Assembly (NCBI RefSeq): GCF_900115955.1
Contig: NZ_FOYL01000007.1
Span: 310,001 to 374,000, forward strand
Direction of reading: 5' to 3'
Length of the DNA: 64,000 nucleotides
DNA from: Lentzea waywayandensis
Lineage (GTDB): Bacteria > Actinomycetota > Actinomycetes > Mycobacteriales > Pseudonocardiaceae
How positions within the stretch are numbered: the stretch's first letter is position 1; every line of letters starts with the position of its first letter. The position numbers and the translations under genes were made by a program. Positions 6,335 through 62,719 of the stretch are shown here, piece after piece. The notes beneath the pieces are model-generated. The model made no database searches and had not been told where the DNA came from. It saw only the letters and a program-made list of their open reading frames with translations.

Positions 6335-6409
6335 TGGTGGGCGCGACAGGGATCGAACCTGCGACCGCTCGGGTGTAAACCGAGTGCTCTTCCGCTGAGC
6401 TACACGCCC
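6335..6409 (-). tRNA. tRNA-Val (anticodon TAC)
   Basis: Read on the minus strand the cloverleaf is complete. The acceptor arm is GGGCGTG paired with CGCGCCC (one G-U). The D arm is GCTC/GAGC. The anticodon arm is CTCGG/CCGAG with loop TTTACAC, giving anticodon TAC. The T arm contains GGTTCGATC. The 3' CCA is encoded. The tRNA would read GUA valine codons, which are rare in this GC-rich genome. Confidence 0.97.
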
Positions 6410-51468: not shown

Positions 51469-52644
51469 TCAGTGTGGAACAGGGCATCCGGTCGGCTTGT
51501 CGGCGGGGAAGAAGTTCGGCAGCAGTTCACCGGAGTCGTAGTAGCGGTGGTAGACCGGCGTCACCCCGCCCGACACGGGTGGCACGATCCAGGACCAGTC
51601 GGCGGGGCAGGATCGTCCCGCGGCCTCCTCCTTCTCCAGGTGCGTCAGGAACCTCTTCGACTCGGTGTGGTGGTCGGTGATCGTCACGCCGGCCTCGCCG
51701 AACGAGTGCAGGACGGCGCGGTTGAGCTCCACGAGAGCTCGGTCGCGCCACAACGTCGCCTCCGACGACATGTCCAGGCCCATTCGCTTGGCGAGGTACG
51801 GCAGCAGGTCGTAGCGGTCGTGGTCGGCCAGGTTGCGGGCGCCGATCTCGGTGCCCATGTACCAGCCGTTGAACGGCGCCGACGGGTAGTCGATGCCGCC
51901 GATGCGCAGGCGCATGTTGCTGATGGCGGGAACGGCGTGCCACTTCACGCCGAGCGCCCCGAGCCACGGGAAGTCCGGGTGTGTCAGCGGGACCTCGAGC
52001 ACGGCGTCGGCGGGGATCTCGACGAGCGCGGGGTCGTGGCCCTTGCAGGACACCATCAGCGGCAGCACGTCGAACGGGCCGCGCGTCGCGGGTGGTTGCC
52101 AGCCGCGCTTCAACGCGAGGTCGGTGAGCGCCAGGTTCCGCGCGTCGCCGAGCACGCCGCCGTCGGTGCCGCGGTAGGCGGCGTAGCGGATGACCTGCTC
52201 GTTGATGATCTGCGGCGCGTCCATGCCCGGCTCGGCGGGGGCGAAGATCGTGATGACGGGCCGGATCTTGCCCTTGTTCGTGGCGACGCGGAGGTGCTCG
52301 ACGCAGTCCGCCGCCACGTCGGCGGGGGCCGAGACCTCGCGCTGGTCACGCACTTTCAAGCTCCGCCAGTACAGGCGGCCGATGCAGCGTGAGCTGTTGC
52401 GCCAGGCCACGCGGGCGCCGAAGGTCAGTTCGGCGGTCGTGTGGCGGTAGGTGCCGGTCGCGGCGATCTCCGCGTGCACCTCGGCCAGCCTGGCCTCGAC
52501 GGGACCGAGTTCCGGATGTTCGGCGTGGTGCTGCCGGACGAAGTCCTCAGCCTCGGAGATGTCGATCTCGCCGATGTTCTCGACCTGCGCCGGGGGAAGC
52601 GCCCTGAGGGAACGTGGCATCACATCAGTCGGGACGGGGGTCAT
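51469..52644 (-). CDS. nos: Bacterial nitric oxide synthase, oxygenase domain
   Basis: A 391-residue heme protein that oxidises L-arginine to citrulline and nitric oxide. The heme thiolate is Cys87 in WRNSSRCIGRL. The substrate-binding region FNGWYMGTEIGARNL carries the conserved Glu that holds arginine, and the pterin site lies near the C-terminal WSWIVPP. No reductase domain is fused, as usual in bacteria, so general reductases serve. A TACGGT hexamer lies eight bases before the ATG on the minus strand. In bacteria NO serves stress defence, signalling or nitration of metabolites; no nitrating P450 is adjacent. Confidence 0.95.
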   Translation of the reverse strand: MTPVPTDVMPRSLRALPPAQVENIGEIDISEAEDFVRQHHAEHPELGPVEARLAEVHAEIAATGTYRHTTAELTFGARVAWRNSSRCIGRLYWRSLKVRDQREVSAPADVAADCVEHLRVATNKGKIRPVITIFAPAEPGMDAPQIINEQVIRYAAYRGTDGGVLGDARNLALTDLALKRGWQPPATRGPFDVLPLMVSCKGHDPALVEIPADAVLEVPLTHPDFPWLGALGVKWHAVPAISNMRLRIGGIDYPSAPFNGWYMGTEIGARNLADHDRYDLLPYLAKRMGLDMSSEATLWRDRALVELNRAVLHSFGEAGVTITDHHTESKRFLTHLEKEEAAGRSCPADWSWIVPPVSGGVTPVYHRYYDSGELLPNFFPADKPTGCPVPH

Positions 52645-54599: not shown

Positions 54600-55136
54600 G
54601 TGCGCAGGGACCTGATCACCGACGCCGCGATCCAGCTCGTCGCCGAGCAGGGCATGCGCGGGCTCACCCACCGCGCGGTCGACCGTCGGGCCGGGTTGCC
54701 GGAAGGCTCCACCAGCGCGTACTTCCGCACGCGCAAGGCGTTGATCGAGGGGTTCGTGGCACGGCTCGCGGACCAGGAACGGCTGGACGTCGTGCCCGAT
54801 CCCGACGACGTCGCGGGCAGCATCGCGAGGACGCTCGACAGCTGGCTGGTCGAGCGGAACAGGACGCTCGCGAGGTACGCGGCGATGCTGGAGGCCACGC
54901 ACCACCCCGAACTGAAGTCGATCATGGTCCACTCGCCGCGCGAGCAGGCCACCGCGATCGCGAAGATGCTGGGGCACGAGGATCCCGAACGGGCGGGCGC
55001 GCACTTCACGGCGTTCCTGGAGGGCCTGCTCTTCTACCGGCTCGTCGGCGGCGGCAGCACGGTCGGGCCGACGCCCGGCACCGAGGAGAGCGTGCGGGAC
55101 CTCCGCAAGGCCGTCGAAAAAGCGTTGCGGCCGTAA
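54600..55136 (+). CDS. TetR family transcriptional regulator
   Basis: A 178-residue TetR-type repressor with the DNA-binding helices at the N-terminus (TDAAIQLVAEQGMRGLTHRAVDRR, about 6-29, then GLPEGSTSAYFRTRKALIEGF). GTG 54600 is preferred because GAGGAG lies immediately upstream; an in-frame ATG at 54588 would place that site inside the gene. Three matching palindromes lie 15-60 bp upstream. It probably represses itself and the divergent monooxygenase/membrane protein pair. Confidence 0.9.
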   Translation: MRRDLITDAAIQLVAEQGMRGLTHRAVDRRAGLPEGSTSAYFRTRKALIEGFVARLADQERLDVVPDPDDVAGSIARTLDSWLVERNRTLARYAAMLEATHHPELKSIMVHSPREQATAIAKMLGHEDPERAGAHFTAFLEGLLFYRLVGGGSTVGPTPGTEESVRDLRKAVEKALRP

Positions 55137-55150
55137 GTACCGTGGGTTTC

Positions 55151-55183
55151 ATGGGATTCGGGTACGGGGTCTTCTACCTCTGA
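55151..55183 (+). CDS. Putative 10-residue leader peptide of the ABC-F gene
   Basis: The frame reads MGFGYGVFYL and stops at TGA 55181-55183, 60 bases before the ABC-F start. The ribosome site is weak. The aromatic, hydrophobic end resembles stalling leaders of antibiotic-resistance genes. Codons 4-9 lie in the strand that can pair with the ABC-F start region, which is the geometry needed for attenuation. Confidence 0.5.
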   Translation: MGFGYGVFYL

Positions 55184-55243
55184 TCACGGACGTGTGCCAC
55201 CGCGCAACACGTCCTGATTTCGCGTACCCAGAAGAGGATCCCC

Positions 55244-55247
<4 letters not shown>
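55160..55247 (+). promoter_or_regulatory. Predicted translational attenuator sequestering the ABC-F start
   Basis: Bases 55162-55175 can pair with 55240-55247 (8 pairs, one G-U, covering the GTG start) and 55230-55235 (6 pairs, covering part of the ribosome site), leaving a 4-base bulge. Inside this is an 8-bp hairpin (55188-55195 with 55207-55214). A ribosome stalled on the leader peptide would cover 55162-55175 and free the start. An alternative helix GGGTAC/GTACCC (55160-55165 with 55224-55229) is mutually exclusive with it. Confidence 0.6.
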
Positions 55248-56803
<1,556 letters not shown>

Positions 56804-56834
56804 GTCTTCTGCCAAGCACTGGGAGGTGTGCGAG

Positions 56835-58046
56835 ATGACCGAACTGATCTCCGAGAAACTGCCAACCACGCGCCAGAACCCGTTCGACCCGCCCGCCGAG
56901 GTCACGCGGATCCGCGAGCAGGCCCGCATCAGCAGGCTGAGGTTCGCCGACGGTCACCTCGGCTGGCTCGTCACCGGCCACCACCAGGTGCGCGAAGTCC
57001 TGGGGAGCCCGAAGTTCACGACCGACCCGGCCAAGCACCACCAGCTGGACGCCAGGTTCCAGGGCGAGGCGCCCGAGGAAGGCCGCAAGGTCGAACCGGG
57101 CATGTTCCTGAGCCAGGACGCACCGGACCACACCCGGCTGCGCAAGATGCTTCAGGGCCAGTTCACGGTCCGGCGGATGAACCAGCTGTCCGAGTGGATC
57201 GGCACGATCGTCGACGACCAGCTCAAGCACCTGCGGTCGTTCGAAGGCAGAGCGGACCTGGTGAAGGAGTTCGCGCTGCCGGTGCCGTCACTGGTGATCT
57301 GCGCGCTGCTCGGCGTCGACTACGACGAGCGGCACAGGTTCCAGGAGGACACGGCGAAGATGCTCAGCCTGGAGTCGACCTTCAAGGAGGCCATGGAGGC
57401 CATCAGGCGCATCCAGGACTTCATGCGCGAGCTGATCGAGCGCAAGAAGGCGAACCCCGGTGGCGACGACATGATCAGCGATCTGCTGGCCACCGGGGAG
57501 CCGACCGACGAGGAAGCGTCGAACATGGCGCTGCTGCTCCTGCTGGCCGGCCACGAGACCACGGCGAACATGCTGGGAATCGGCGCGTTCACGCTCCTTC
57601 AGCACCCGGACCAGCTGAAGATCCTGCGCGACGAGCCCGAGGTCGTCGACAACGCCGTCGAGGAGCTGATGCGCTACCTGTCGATCATCCACTTCGGACC
57701 GGTGCGCACCGCCACCGAGGACGTGGAGATCGACGGCCACCTGATCAAGGCGGGCGACACCGTGCTGATGCACGTGCCGGTCGCGAACCGCGACCCGGAG
57801 AAGTTCCCCGGCAACCCCGAGGAGCTCGACCTGCGGCGTCCGGCCGGCGGCCACGTGGCGTTCGGGCACGGCATCCACCAGTGCCTGGGTCAGCAGCTCG
57901 CCCGCATCGAGATGCGGATCGGTTTCTCCAGGCTGTTCCAGGAGTTCCCGGACCTCCGCCTCGACATCGACCCCGAGGAGGTGCCGCTGCGCACCGACAT
58001 GGGGATCTACGGGGTCCACTCGCTGCCAGTAGCGTGGTCGGCATGA
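56835..58046 (+). CDS. Cytochrome P450
   Basis: A 403-residue soluble P450. The I-helix motif AGHETTAN (about 237), the K-helix EELMRY, NRDPEKFPGNPEELDLRRP and the heme loop FGHGIHQCLGQQLAR (about 342-356) are all canonical, close to CYP105-type enzymes that tailor macrolides or degrade xenobiotics. ATG 56835 is fixed by GGGAGG eight bases upstream. The stop overlaps the ferredoxin start (ATGA), so its electron donor is made together with it. Its position after an ABC-F gene hints at handling of an antibiotic. Confidence 0.94.
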   Translation: MTELISEKLPTTRQNPFDPPAEVTRIREQARISRLRFADGHLGWLVTGHHQVREVLGSPKFTTDPAKHHQLDARFQGEAPEEGRKVEPGMFLSQDAPDHTRLRKMLQGQFTVRRMNQLSEWIGTIVDDQLKHLRSFEGRADLVKEFALPVPSLVICALLGVDYDERHRFQEDTAKMLSLESTFKEAMEAIRRIQDFMRELIERKKANPGGDDMISDLLATGEPTDEEASNMALLLLLAGHETTANMLGIGAFTLLQHPDQLKILRDEPEVVDNAVEELMRYLSIIHFGPVRTATEDVEIDGHLIKAGDTVLMHVPVANRDPEKFPGNPEELDLRRPAGGHVAFGHGIHQCLGQQLARIEMRIGFSRLFQEFPDLRLDIDPEEVPLRTDMGIYGVHSLPVAWSA

Positions 58047-58234
58047 AGATCTCCGTCGACCAGACGAAGTGCTGCGGTTCGGGAATGTGCGTTCTGACCG
58101 ACCCGGACCTCTTCGACCAGAGCGAAGACGACGGCACCGTCGTACTGCTGCAAGAGCACCCCGACGCCGCGCACGAGGCCACCGCGAAGGAGGCGGCGGG
58201 CCTGTGCCCGGCGGGCGCGATCACGATCAGTTGA
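58043..58234 (+). CDS. [3Fe-4S]-type ferredoxin
   Basis: A 63-residue ferredoxin of the kind that feeds actinobacterial P450s. Cluster ligands are in TKCCGSGMCVLT (Cys about 9 or 10 and 15) and GLCPAGAITI near the C-terminus; one position of the usual 4Fe-4S motif is non-Cys, which gives a 3Fe-4S cluster. It overlaps the P450 stop by four bases and ends 8 bp inside the convergent TNT gene. Confidence 0.93.
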   Translation: MKISVDQTKCCGSGMCVLTDPDLFDQSEDDGTVVLLQEHPDAAHEATAKEAAGLCPAGAITIS

Positions 58235-59706: not shown

Positions 59707-59800
59707 GGCCTGTGTCGAAGTCTGGTTCGATGAGAGTCGCGCTTGAGGTGGGGCCGCCTCGGGCCCCGGCTGTCGCGGACCAGACTTCGATTCAGGCCCT
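59705..59800. repeat. 96-bp imperfect palindromic element, copy B
   Basis: AGGGCCTG (59705-59712) pairs with CAGGCCCT (59793-59800), and the 11-mer 59715-59725 pairs perfectly with 59780-59790. The inner halves 59725-59751 and 59751-59777 match copy A (23 of 27 and about 24 of 26 bases). It spans the stop codons of both convergent genes and probably terminates both. Confidence 0.85.
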
Positions 59801-62719
59801 GGTGGCGAGGCGGAGTTCGTCGACCTCGGCCTGGAACCCCGCCGCCGTCAGCGTTTCCTCCGCCAGCTGCCAGTGCTCGCGCGCCTCCTCCAGCCGCCCG
59901 GTCCGCGCCAGGGCGTCGCCCAGCACCCGCAACGACCGCCCGAACTCCGGCGGCGACCCCATCTTCCTGGCCTGTTCCATCGCCAGCGAGGCCAGCGTCA
60001 GTGCCTCCTCCGCCGAAGAGGCCATCCCGGACCTCAGGCGCCACACCCAGATGCGGCCCTGCCGGTCGTCGTGCTCGTCGAAGAACTCCCAGGCCTGCCG
60101 CAACTGGTCCTCGGCGAGGGAGTCCTGCCCGGATCGCACCAGTGTGTCCGCCAGGAACAGCCGGATGTTCGCGGCCAGGTCCGGATCGCCGAACTTCTGC
60201 GCGGCGGCGAGAGACGACCTCAGGAACTCCACCGACAGCGTCAGCTCGCCGGTGAACTGGTGCAACCTCCCCAGTTCCAGCTTGGCCATCAACTCGCTCT
60301 GCGAGTCCCCCATCGACCCGGCGAGCCGGCAGGCCCGCTCCAGGTAGCCCTGCGCGGCGACCAGCCCGCCGGCCCGGCGCTCGATGGCTCCCAGCGAGCA
60401 CAACACCTCGATCTCGCCGTGCGGGTTGTCGGAGGCGGCGAAACGCGCCATGGCCTCGCGATGGGCCTCACGGGCCTCCGCGGACCGTCCGCTCCACTCA
60501 TGCATCCAGCCCACGCCGTACCAGGCGTAGGCCTCACCCCACACGTCTCCGGCGGCGGCGAAACCCTCCTGCGCGGCCTGGAAATGAGCGGAAGCCGCGG
60601 CGTAGTCGTGCAGTCGCGCGCTCAGGATCCCGCGCTGCTGGAACAGCATCGGCCGGTGCGACTCGGGCGCGCACGACAGGCCGAGGTCGTTGATCTGTCC
60701 CCAGTCGTCGAACCGGGCCCGCAGGTCGCAGAACGCCGCCGACCGGATCGCCAGCTCGGCGGCCAGGACTCCCAGCCCCAGCGCCGCGGCCTGGGTGATC
60801 ACGGCGTGGATGTTCAGCCACTCCGCGTCGAACCAGTCGGCCGCGTCGCCGAGGTCGAACCGTTCCAGCGCAAGGGGTTCCAGCCGGACGCCCTGGTGCG
60901 GCAGCTCCGCGTCGGCCCGCGTCGCGAGATCGAGCCAGTGCTCGAACAACGCCTGGAGCGCGATGGCCGGATCCTCGGAGGCGGCCTCCCGTCCGAAGGC
61001 GCGCAACAGGTCGTGCAGCCGGTACCGCACCTGCCCCAGCGCGTCACGACCCGCGTAGTCGACCAGCCGGGCGTCGACCAGTGCCTCGACGTGGTCCTCG
61101 GCGTCGTCGAGGTCGAGGCCCAGCAACGGGGACGCGACCCACGCCGGGAAGTCCGGGGTGTCCACCAGGGACAGCAGCCGGAAAGCGGTCTGGTGCGTCT
61201 TGTCCAGGCCGTCGTAGGACAACGCGAGGGAAGCCCGCACGTCGAGGTCGCCCAGCGACAGCTCGTCGAACCGGCGGCGTTCGTCGGACAACCGGCCGGC
61301 GAGTTTCGCGAGCTGCCAGTGCGGACGTGCCACGAGGCGGGCCGCGGCCACCCGCAGCGCCAGCGGCAGCTTGCCGCAGTAGGTCACGATCTCCTGCGCC
61401 GCGGCGGGTTCGGCGGCACAGCGGGCCTCACCGACCGCGGCCCGCAGCAACGCCAGCGCGTCCGCGGACGGCAGCACGTCCAGCGGCACGACGTGCGCGG
61501 CTTCCAGCCCGGCCAGCGCGGCCCGCGAGGTGACCAGGGCGGCACCCGAGGTGGTCCCCGGCAGCAGCGGCCGGACCTGGGCCTCGTTCACGGCGTTGTC
61601 CAGCACGACGAGGATCCGCCGGTCCGACAACAGGTCCCGATAGAGATCGACCCGATCCTCCACAGAGGACGGAATGGCGCCGCCCGACACGCCGAGACCG
61701 CGCAGCAACCGGTCCAGCGCGGCAGCGGGTTCGACGGACTTCTGCTCGCCGCCGCGCAGGTTCAGGTACAGCTGCCCGTCCGGGAAGGCGTCCCGGACGG
61801 CGTGAGCGCACTGCACGGCCAACGAGGTCTTGCCGACGCCACCGGGCCCGGTGATCGTCCACGTGCCCCCGGCGCGCAACCCGGCGGTCAGCCGCACGAC
61901 CTCGTCGGACCGCCCGGAGAAGTCGCCGACCGCGGGCGGCAGCCAGGAAGGTCCGGACTGGACCGCGACCGGCGCCGAAGAACCCGCCAGGACCTCCATG
62001 TGCAGAGCGCGGAGCTCGGCGTTCGGGTCGATGCCGAGCTCGTCGGCGAGCACGTCGCTGGCCCGGCGGTAGACGTCCAGCGCCTGGGCCTGCTGGCCGG
62101 TGCGGTGCAGCGCGAGCATGAGCTGGTACCAGAAGCGTTCGCGCAGCGGATGTTCCGCGACGAGCGAGCGCAGCTCGTCGACGATCTGGTCGTGCCGGCC
62201 CAGCTGGAGCTCGGCGTCGTTGCGGCGTTCCAGCACCTCCCAGCGCTGTTCGTTCAGGCGCTGCACGTCGGTCTGTTCCATCCGCAGCGACGACACCTGG
62301 TCGAGGGCCGGTCCGCGCCACAACGCCGCGGCCTCGCCCAGAAGCCGCGCCTCCGTCTCCAGGTCGGGCGCGCGGCGGGCCTCGGCGCGCAGCCGCTGGA
62401 ACGTCAGCAGGTCGAGCTGGTCGTCCTCGACGTGGATCGAGTAGCCGGTGGGCCACGTGCGGACGAGTTTGCGGTCGGCCAGGTCGTCCAGCGACTGTCT
62501 CAACCGCATGACGTACGTCTGCAGGGTCGCGCGCGCCGCACCTGACGGCTCCTCGCCCCAGAGGTGTTCCATCAGCTCGTAGGACGAGACCGGCGCGTTC
62601 GCCTTCATCAGCAACGCGGCGAGCAGGACACGCTGTTTGGCCGAGCGCAGCTCCACCGCCCGGCCCGAGTCGATGACCTGCAACGATCCGAGAACTCTGA
62701 ACTCCCACCGCCGTTGCAT
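59792..62719 (-). CDS. AfsR-type SARP transcriptional regulator with NB-ARC and TPR domains
   Basis: A 975-residue regulator. An OmpR-type winged helix (about 8-95, KQRVLLAALLMKANAPVSSYELMEHLWG) and a BTAD domain (about 100-245) form the SARP part, which binds direct repeats and recruits RNA polymerase. An NB-ARC ATPase follows, with GPGGVGKTS near residue 290 and VLDNAV as the Walker B-like site; tetratricopeptide repeats fill about 640-975. The large AfsR group controls antibiotic synthesis. Its start faces a small secreted-protein gene across 73 bp holding 11-bp direct repeats. Its stop lies in element B. Confidence 0.92.
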   Translation of the reverse strand: MQRRWEFRVLGSLQVIDSGRAVELRSAKQRVLLAALLMKANAPVSSYELMEHLWGEEPSGAARATLQTYVMRLRQSLDDLADRKLVRTWPTGYSIHVEDDQLDLLTFQRLRAEARRAPDLETEARLLGEAAALWRGPALDQVSSLRMEQTDVQRLNEQRWEVLERRNDAELQLGRHDQIVDELRSLVAEHPLRERFWYQLMLALHRTGQQAQALDVYRRASDVLADELGIDPNAELRALHMEVLAGSSAPVAVQSGPSWLPPAVGDFSGRSDEVVRLTAGLRAGGTWTITGPGGVGKTSLAVQCAHAVRDAFPDGQLYLNLRGGEQKSVEPAAALDRLLRGLGVSGGAIPSSVEDRVDLYRDLLSDRRILVVLDNAVNEAQVRPLLPGTTSGAALVTSRAALAGLEAAHVVPLDVLPSADALALLRAAVGEARCAAEPAAAQEIVTYCGKLPLALRVAAARLVARPHWQLAKLAGRLSDERRRFDELSLGDLDVRASLALSYDGLDKTHQTAFRLLSLVDTPDFPAWVASPLLGLDLDDAEDHVEALVDARLVDYAGRDALGQVRYRLHDLLRAFGREAASEDPAIALQALFEHWLDLATRADAELPHQGVRLEPLALERFDLGDAADWFDAEWLNIHAVITQAAALGLGVLAAELAIRSAAFCDLRARFDDWGQINDLGLSCAPESHRPMLFQQRGILSARLHDYAAASAHFQAAQEGFAAAGDVWGEAYAWYGVGWMHEWSGRSAEAREAHREAMARFAASDNPHGEIEVLCSLGAIERRAGGLVAAQGYLERACRLAGSMGDSQSELMAKLELGRLHQFTGELTLSVEFLRSSLAAAQKFGDPDLAANIRLFLADTLVRSGQDSLAEDQLRQAWEFFDEHDDRQGRIWVWRLRSGMASSAEEALTLASLAMEQARKMGSPPEFGRSLRVLGDALARTGRLEEAREHWQLAEETLTAAGFQAEVDELRLATRA

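Follow-up and report, generated by a model that had tools for sequence, protein, structure and literature searches.

A leader open reading frame of ten codons, encoding MGFGYGVFYL, precedes an ABC-F gene in Lentzea waywayandensis, and we consider it probable, at about 0.7, that the two form a ribosome-mediated, mainly translational attenuator. The window analyzed was a stretch of 64,000 nucleotides (contig NZ_FOYL01000007.1, positions 310,001 to 374,000 of the forward strand), and all coordinates below are those of this window (Table 1). At about even odds, the leader also belongs to an undescribed class of drug-sensing leaders that share an aromatic/hydrophobic-[F/Y]-Leu-stop end, are leaderless, and stand before one unnamed ABC-F clade in several Actinomycetes families at least. 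Such leaders would be the older sensor of the clade, replaced by an R-L-R leader in one derived subclade, and would arrest the ribosome at or just before termination with tunnel-binding drugs. What is new is the leader motif, the probable leaderless start and the unnamed ABC-F clade; ribosome-mediated attenuation of ABC-F genes is known.

Table 1. Features of the leader region and of the genes behind it, in window coordinates
Feature	Coordinates	Strand	Remarks
-10-like TANNNT box, TACCGT	55138-55143	+	7 nt before leader ATG; putative promoter
Leader ORF ATGGGATTCGGGTACGGGGTCTTCTACCTCTGA, MGFGYGVFYL and stop	55151-55183	+	Probably translated without a Shine-Dalgarno (SD) sequence
Anti-SD arm GGGUCUUCU, leader codons 6-9	55167-55175	+	Pairs with 55233-55241
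SD-containing arm AGAGGAUCC, SD core 55233-55238	55233-55241	+	Consensus fold, helix conservation
Alternative state B, 5' arms	55153-55166	+	55153-55159 with 55236-55242; 55160-55166 with 55223-55229
State B, 3' arm CGUACCC	55223-55229	+	
Inner hairpin	55188-55214	+	Stem 55188-55195 with 55207-55214, 8 bp
Local 5-bp hairpin holding the ABC-F start codon	55243-55256	+	Consensus fold
ABC-F ATPase, 519 aa, predicted resistance type	55244-56803	+	NCBIfam
Cytochrome P450	56826-58046	+	22 nt after ABC-F stop; GTG 56826 or internal ATG 56835
Small ferredoxin-like protein	58043-58234	+	ATG overlaps P450 stop; presumably a ferredoxin, from its Cys pattern

The ten-codon frame had been proposed in a sequence-only reading of the window. 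It is indeed present, and the peptide is conserved upstream of orthologues: the ORF was retained in all 24 Lentzea genomes searched, with 30 of its 33 columns invariant and single-base deviations, one each, in rows L012, L014 and L028. In an alignment of approximately 2.3 kb, covering 700 nt before the ABC-F coding sequence and 1500 nt within it, the leader was the most conserved 33-nt window. At least 30 invariant columns were reached by none of the 1468 coding windows and none of the 640 upstream windows of this length, the best coding window having 28. Third codon positions were invariant in 10 of 11 leader codons versus 22.8% in the ABC-F coding sequence. With silent positions of the leader so constrained, selection seems to act on RNA pairing or codon choice besides the peptide. 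The 12-mer TTCTACCTCTGA, searched for on its own, occurred 25 times in the 24 genomes, 24 times at the leader. A literature search covering mainly open-access articles found no mention of the peptides MHLYFL, MQYLYFL, MQQLLFL, MQHLFFL, MGFGYGVFYL and MQHLYFL. Searches on leader peptides in Pseudonocardiaceae, on leaderless macrolide leaders, and on Lentzea ABC-F genes or upstream ORFs (uORFs) likewise showed nothing on the present system among the papers listed, which does not in itself prove novelty.

The region before the leader points to initiation without a ribosome binding site. All 24 Lentzea genomes share the TANNNT box, always 7 nt ahead of the leader ATG, and its three defining bases (T, A and final T) do not vary. 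All 82 leader-bearing non-Lentzea relatives (see below) have a TANNNT 6-7 nt ahead of an in-frame start codon of the leader, a count over related sequences rather than independent events (300 shuffles: mean 1.6, maximum 6). A four-base SD core at -15 to -4 before the leader was found in none of the 106 leader-bearing sequences; at the background frequency of 9.5% of upstream 12-nt windows, approximately 10 would be expected. The TANNNT box and the lack of an SD core make it probable that the mRNA is leaderless, starting at or next to 55151, and that the leader is translated from its very 5' end. A sigma-70 consensus scan of 54900-55400 found no promoter. A candidate -35/-10 pair, TTGCGG/TTTCAT, placing the transcription start within the leader, was rejected: L030 and L031 deviate at the T of TTTCAT, whereas the TANNNT box is constant.

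In 68 of the 82 non-Lentzea relatives, an A-rich triplet precedes the TANNNT box by approximately 31 nt, against a mean of 0.9 and at most 2 in control windows. This fits the published WhiB7 motif, in which AT-rich sequence lies 3 bp before the -35 element (PMC10727445). A WhiB7/WblC-type promoter in the window itself was rejected, as GAAAAA lies at -22 to -17 from TACCGT and not at about -31. Lentzea has instead a conserved GAAAA..GTTGCG at 55116-55129, the A-rich triplet being absent at approximately 31 nt.

The sequence-only reading had further proposed a 14-pair helix with a bulge, closing over both the ribosome site and the GTG start of the ABC-F gene. When the RNA is folded from the leader ATG, this helix (55162-55175 with 55230-55247, 4-nt bulge) is part of the minimum free energy structure: 55151-55260 folds at -46.3 kcal/mol (z = -2.95), as low as which fell 1 of 200 shuffles, and the fold of 55151-55275 resembles it. 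With a longer 5' end (55137-55260), a competing 5' hairpin appears and the SD is still paired (z = -2.73, 3 of 200 shuffles). Across Lentzea, 87.8% of cells in one main part of the bulged helix and 91.7% in the other were kept, but 13 of the 21 distinct rows cannot form a standard pair at C55174:G55231 and one further row is gapped there. The exact bulged form was accordingly replaced by a contiguous 9-bp helix, 55167-55175:55233-55241, kept in 97.9% of cells over the 21 distinct rows. When the partners of the whole structure were slid by 1-3 columns as a control, only 42-65% of cells paired. The pairing over the ribosome site is thus retained in modified form.

The nested 8-bp hairpin of the same reading was recovered unchanged, with 97.0% of cells paired and six of its eight pairs never varying. 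A local hairpin of five pairs holds the start codon in the consensus fold. An SD-like core lies at -15 to -4 of the ABC-F gene in 23 of 24 Lentzea genomes when AGAAG is allowed, and the folds predict that leader codons sequester this SD. Covariation is nearly nil in Lentzea because the leader hardly varies: RNAalifold gave double changes at 0 of 36 pairs, and the 9-bp helix had none within the genus, its shuffle control being uninformative. A 5-bp CCUCU:AGAGG helix (H3) was discarded, its ensemble probability being 0.00 in all 24 rows.

A second arrangement, state B, was likewise kept (55153-55159:55236-55242 in 91.8% and 55160-55166:55223-55229 in 97.3% of cells) and carries one compensatory change, in L028, a number equaled by 42 of 500 shuffles. 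State B and the 9-bp helix are mutually exclusive, and folding ensembles favor one or the other depending on the species. Several Lentzea ensembles favor state B, in which the SD is only partly paired.

These data also bear on where the leader would act. The same leader could sense a drug and control transcription, its stalled ribosome preventing premature termination, either intrinsic or Rho-dependent. Most characterized ABC-F leaders, such as those of lmrC and msrD, do work on transcription, and one weak terminator-like site was found against 0.3 expected. However, this site, 55243-55256, is the 5-bp stem over the start codon, its tail TTCATTTGAC has no T run, and the SD itself lies inside the best-kept helix. 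We therefore regard transcriptional control as unlikely. An Rfam scan of the whole 64-kb window matched only a tRNA at 6338-6409.

The effect of a stalled ribosome was modeled in 24 Lentzea RNAs by blocking a footprint of -14 to +16 around the P site, or a narrower one of -12 to +12. Using the wider footprint, mean SD accessibility rose from 0.18 to 0.55-0.63 with codons 5-8 in the P site, and reached just 0.29-0.35 at codons 9-10; L031 was an outlier. Using the narrower footprint, accessibility was 0.46-0.68 at codons 6-10 versus 0.19 without a ribosome. Stalls at early codons changed SD accessibility little. The ABC-F start codon was paired in nearly all models, with a mean accessibility of 0.02-0.07 at every stall. 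For a sister group with MQ-type leaders (33 rows; L116, which is without GGAGG, was left out), the model never freed the SD (accessibility 0.00-0.06). The modeling supports SD opening in Lentzea when stalling occurs past the middle of the leader, and not in the MQ-type group. In MQ-type relatives, the SD GGAGGC pairs with an invariant GCCUCC just past the leader stop in 33-34 of 34 rows.

Related leaders precede most relatives' ABC-F genes. We examined 115 upstream regions: those of 86 of the 89 non-Lentzea family matches (excluding G103, G268 and G273), 28 class loci (excluding L157, which repeats L122, and class matches without a locus) and L053, one metagenome-assembled genome being included. 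Family and class matches were 48-64% identical to the query protein, and L053 approximately 50%; gene starts were set by BLAST rather than annotation, so distances are approximate. In 82 of the 115 regions, related sequences and not independent events, a uORF of 6-10 codons ends in F-L-stop (61) or Y-L-stop (21), the stop being UGA in 79 and UAA in three. Within the family set, a uORF ending in [FYW]L-stop was found in 65 of 86 regions, whereas 200 Markov control sets averaged 0.4 and never exceeded 3; the reverse strand of the same 86 gave none. The ten-codon leaders of the nearest outgroups, L055-L058, align with that of Lentzea (MVPPFFVFYL, MGSPFGVFYL, MVPPFFVLYL and MCLGFAVYYL). F and Y codons swap within the motif, while the reading frame and stop persist. 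The part of the leader conserved throughout the clade is the C-terminal [F/Y]L-stop. In the distant compact relatives L059, L111 and L053, leader codons pair with the SD region using other letters (z = -2.3 to -3.6).

Of the 33 regions lacking the motif, two carry near-variants (L068, ending LFFV, and L120, ending LLFH). In 22 others, a CGGCG stem sequence comes immediately after a uORF; the same scan found nothing in the remaining nine. Eight of the 22 CGGCG-stem uORFs contain R-L-R, known as a motif of macrolide arrest, as in MLIQSMRLRTRR and MLTASMRLRFRA, each followed by its stop, and five contain K-V-R. The R-L-R leaders with the conserved CGGCG stem belong to L121, L123, L124, L160, L162 and L164-L166. 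In a tree of 45 rows, from which the rest of the 22 sequences were left out, the six rows labeled RLR form one group with support of 100/99; five of them have R-L-R, and L159 has RPWTRA. This group is nested in a 24-row branch (98/99) that otherwise holds 17 F/Y-L-stop rows and one row without the motif. In a clade nearer CarA/TlrC, L167-L170 have minimal leaders read by eye as M[E/K]L-stop, ATGGAGCTCTGA or ATGAAGCTCTGA. As a positive control, the paralogue at C20:272263 of the same genome is preceded by a uORF ending LVGEDDISG-stop, close to the published tiaA leader, given as MVGDDDISG in PMC12421871. In this genome, the ABC-F genes at C20:272263 and C20:273824 (loci L006 and L002) stand in tandem.

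The composition of these leaders would also suit an attenuator responding to Phe, Tyr or Leu charging instead of a drug: they abound in aromatic residues and close with an aromatic residue and Leu, 55 of the 82 non-Lentzea leaders ending in two aromatics plus Leu. Yet the regulated gene encodes an ABC-F protein and no biosynthetic enzyme, and related ABC-F genes have R-L-R or K-V-R leaders without the motif. An amino acid sensor is quite improbable on these grounds.

The ABC-F gene was found in 24 of 24 Lentzea genomes, starting with ATG in 10 and GTG in 14. It is the single close copy in its own genome, the next best match being 49% identical. NCBIfam matches span residues 7-499, consistent with two ABC domains in one soluble chain, and PDB matches comprise YheS, EttA, YbiT and VmlR/ExpZ. 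The best NCBIfam model, TlrC/CarA/OleB/SrmB (ARE4), scored 339 bits, below its cut-off of 800, and the ribosomal protection-like ABC-F model (NF000355) scored 322 bits, below its cut-off of 380. As the best model is of the macrolide type yet below cut-off, we infer that the protein is an unnamed relative of macrolide-type ABC-F proteins, with a predicted function in resistance. The P450 and ferredoxin-like genes follow it in 21 of 21 loci, L032-L052 (20 Lentzea and one Nocardia sp.), and also in L055-L057. This conserved order suggests that both share the control of the ABC-F gene. The two encoded proteins (56826-58234) may act on the inducing compound. Elsewhere in the window, an ORF at 51469-52644 (-), which we take to resemble bacterial nitric oxide synthase oxygenase by its WRNSSRCIGR motif, and a large ORF at 59792-62719 (-), presumably similar to SARP/AfsR-type regulators, were noted.

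Upstream, a TetR-type gene ends 14 nt before the leader and is present in 20 of the 21 loci L032-L052; L050 (Lentzea xinjiangensis) has neither it nor a FAD-monooxygenase gene in its flank. The proximity of this gene and the inverted repeat of the inner hairpin allow the conserved block to be read as a DNA element, namely the promoter/operator of TetR with the hairpin as palindromic operator. Against this, L050, with the same upstream sequence as L029, keeps the leader and hairpin without TetR; leaders of this type occur at L058-L060 and from L142 on, where no such TetR gene was found in 1.5-kb flanks; and F/Y codons exchange while frame and stop persist. A DNA element is accordingly a remote prospect. 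Equally remote is a role without drug sensing, whether by translational coupling through a short ORF or as a 5' region conserved incidentally: leaderless short ORFs are common in mycobacteria (PMC4633059), but here the peptide end and stop are conserved across families, 53-61 nt separate the leader stop from the ABC-F start in Lentzea, and the SD is predicted to be sequestered.

Returning to translational attenuation, the mechanism that we propose is as follows. The TANNNT promoter would start transcription at the leader's start codon, so that every transcript begins with the leader. Without drug, ribosomes would read MGFGYGVFYL and depart. Codons 6-9 could then pair with the ABC-F SD, or codons 1-6 with the same region in the second state, as folding and conservation suggest, and with the SD paired, little ABC-F protein would be made. 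A ribosome stalled by a drug near F-Y-L-stop would cover the anti-SD arm and free the SD, allowing synthesis of the ABC-F protein and probably also of the P450 and ferredoxin. The inducer would most likely be a drug that acts at the peptide tunnel or the peptidyl transferase center. Macrolide-like drugs are named first mainly because of the R-L-R leaders in the sister subclade, together with the macrolide-type family nearest this ABC-F protein. The erm-type architecture put forward in the sequence-only reading holds as to the conserved leader, the sequestered SD, the inner hairpin and the genus-wide ABC-F gene; the erm name fits the logic only.

If this reading is true, more than 100 naturally varied short arrest peptides with one common end stand before one ABC-F clade, and comparing them could test which peptide rules govern drug-dependent arrest. 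Drug sensing would be freed from SD-led initiation by leaderless translation of the sensor, and the R-L-R leaders of sister genes suggest that sensors can be exchanged while the resistance gene stays. The reading also predicts an inducible operon of ABC-F, P450 and ferredoxin in a genus of antibiotic-rich soils.

Among known systems, macrolide arrest leaders of the SMRLR type occur at msr(A) and ermD. Similar leaders stand before sister-clade ABC-F genes, such as MLTASMRLRFRA and its stop at L165, and are absent from Lentzea, whose leader is without R-L-R. ABC-F genes using uORF attenuation include lmrC, tiaA, are5sc, cplR and msrD (PMC8546547, PMC12421871, PMC10201436, PMC10314930). MsrDL (MYLIFM) of Streptococcus, which stalls at its own stop codon, also precedes a macrolide-type ABC-F gene and is likewise very short and hydrophobic/aromatic (PMC10314930). 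However, MsrDL has a ribosome binding site, prefers UAA and acts on transcription through a Rho-independent terminator (PMC10314930), whereas the present leaders have UGA in 79 of 82 relatives and are probably leaderless, and no clear terminator was seen. The lmrC, tiaA and are5sc systems of Streptomyces also place an actinobacterial ABC-F gene under ribosome-mediated uORF attenuation (PMC8546547, PMC12421871), but their leaders (MLV, MVGDDDISG) differ, they use terminator/antiterminator structures, and their uORFs have ribosome binding sites (PMC8546547, PMC12421871). Compared to cplR of Clostridioides, the three-codon uORF MR[I/M], the intrinsic terminator and the sequestration of the SD by the terminator stem are different (PMC10201436); the translational attenuation, in which only ribosome stalling on the uORF makes the SD available, is alike (PMC10201436). 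The present case differs from ermC-type attenuation, as generally understood, in its target gene, its leader sequence and its probable leaderless start. What it would have in common with ermC-type translational attenuation is the central step, in which stalling on the leader shifts the RNA pairing and exposes the SD (PMC10219788).
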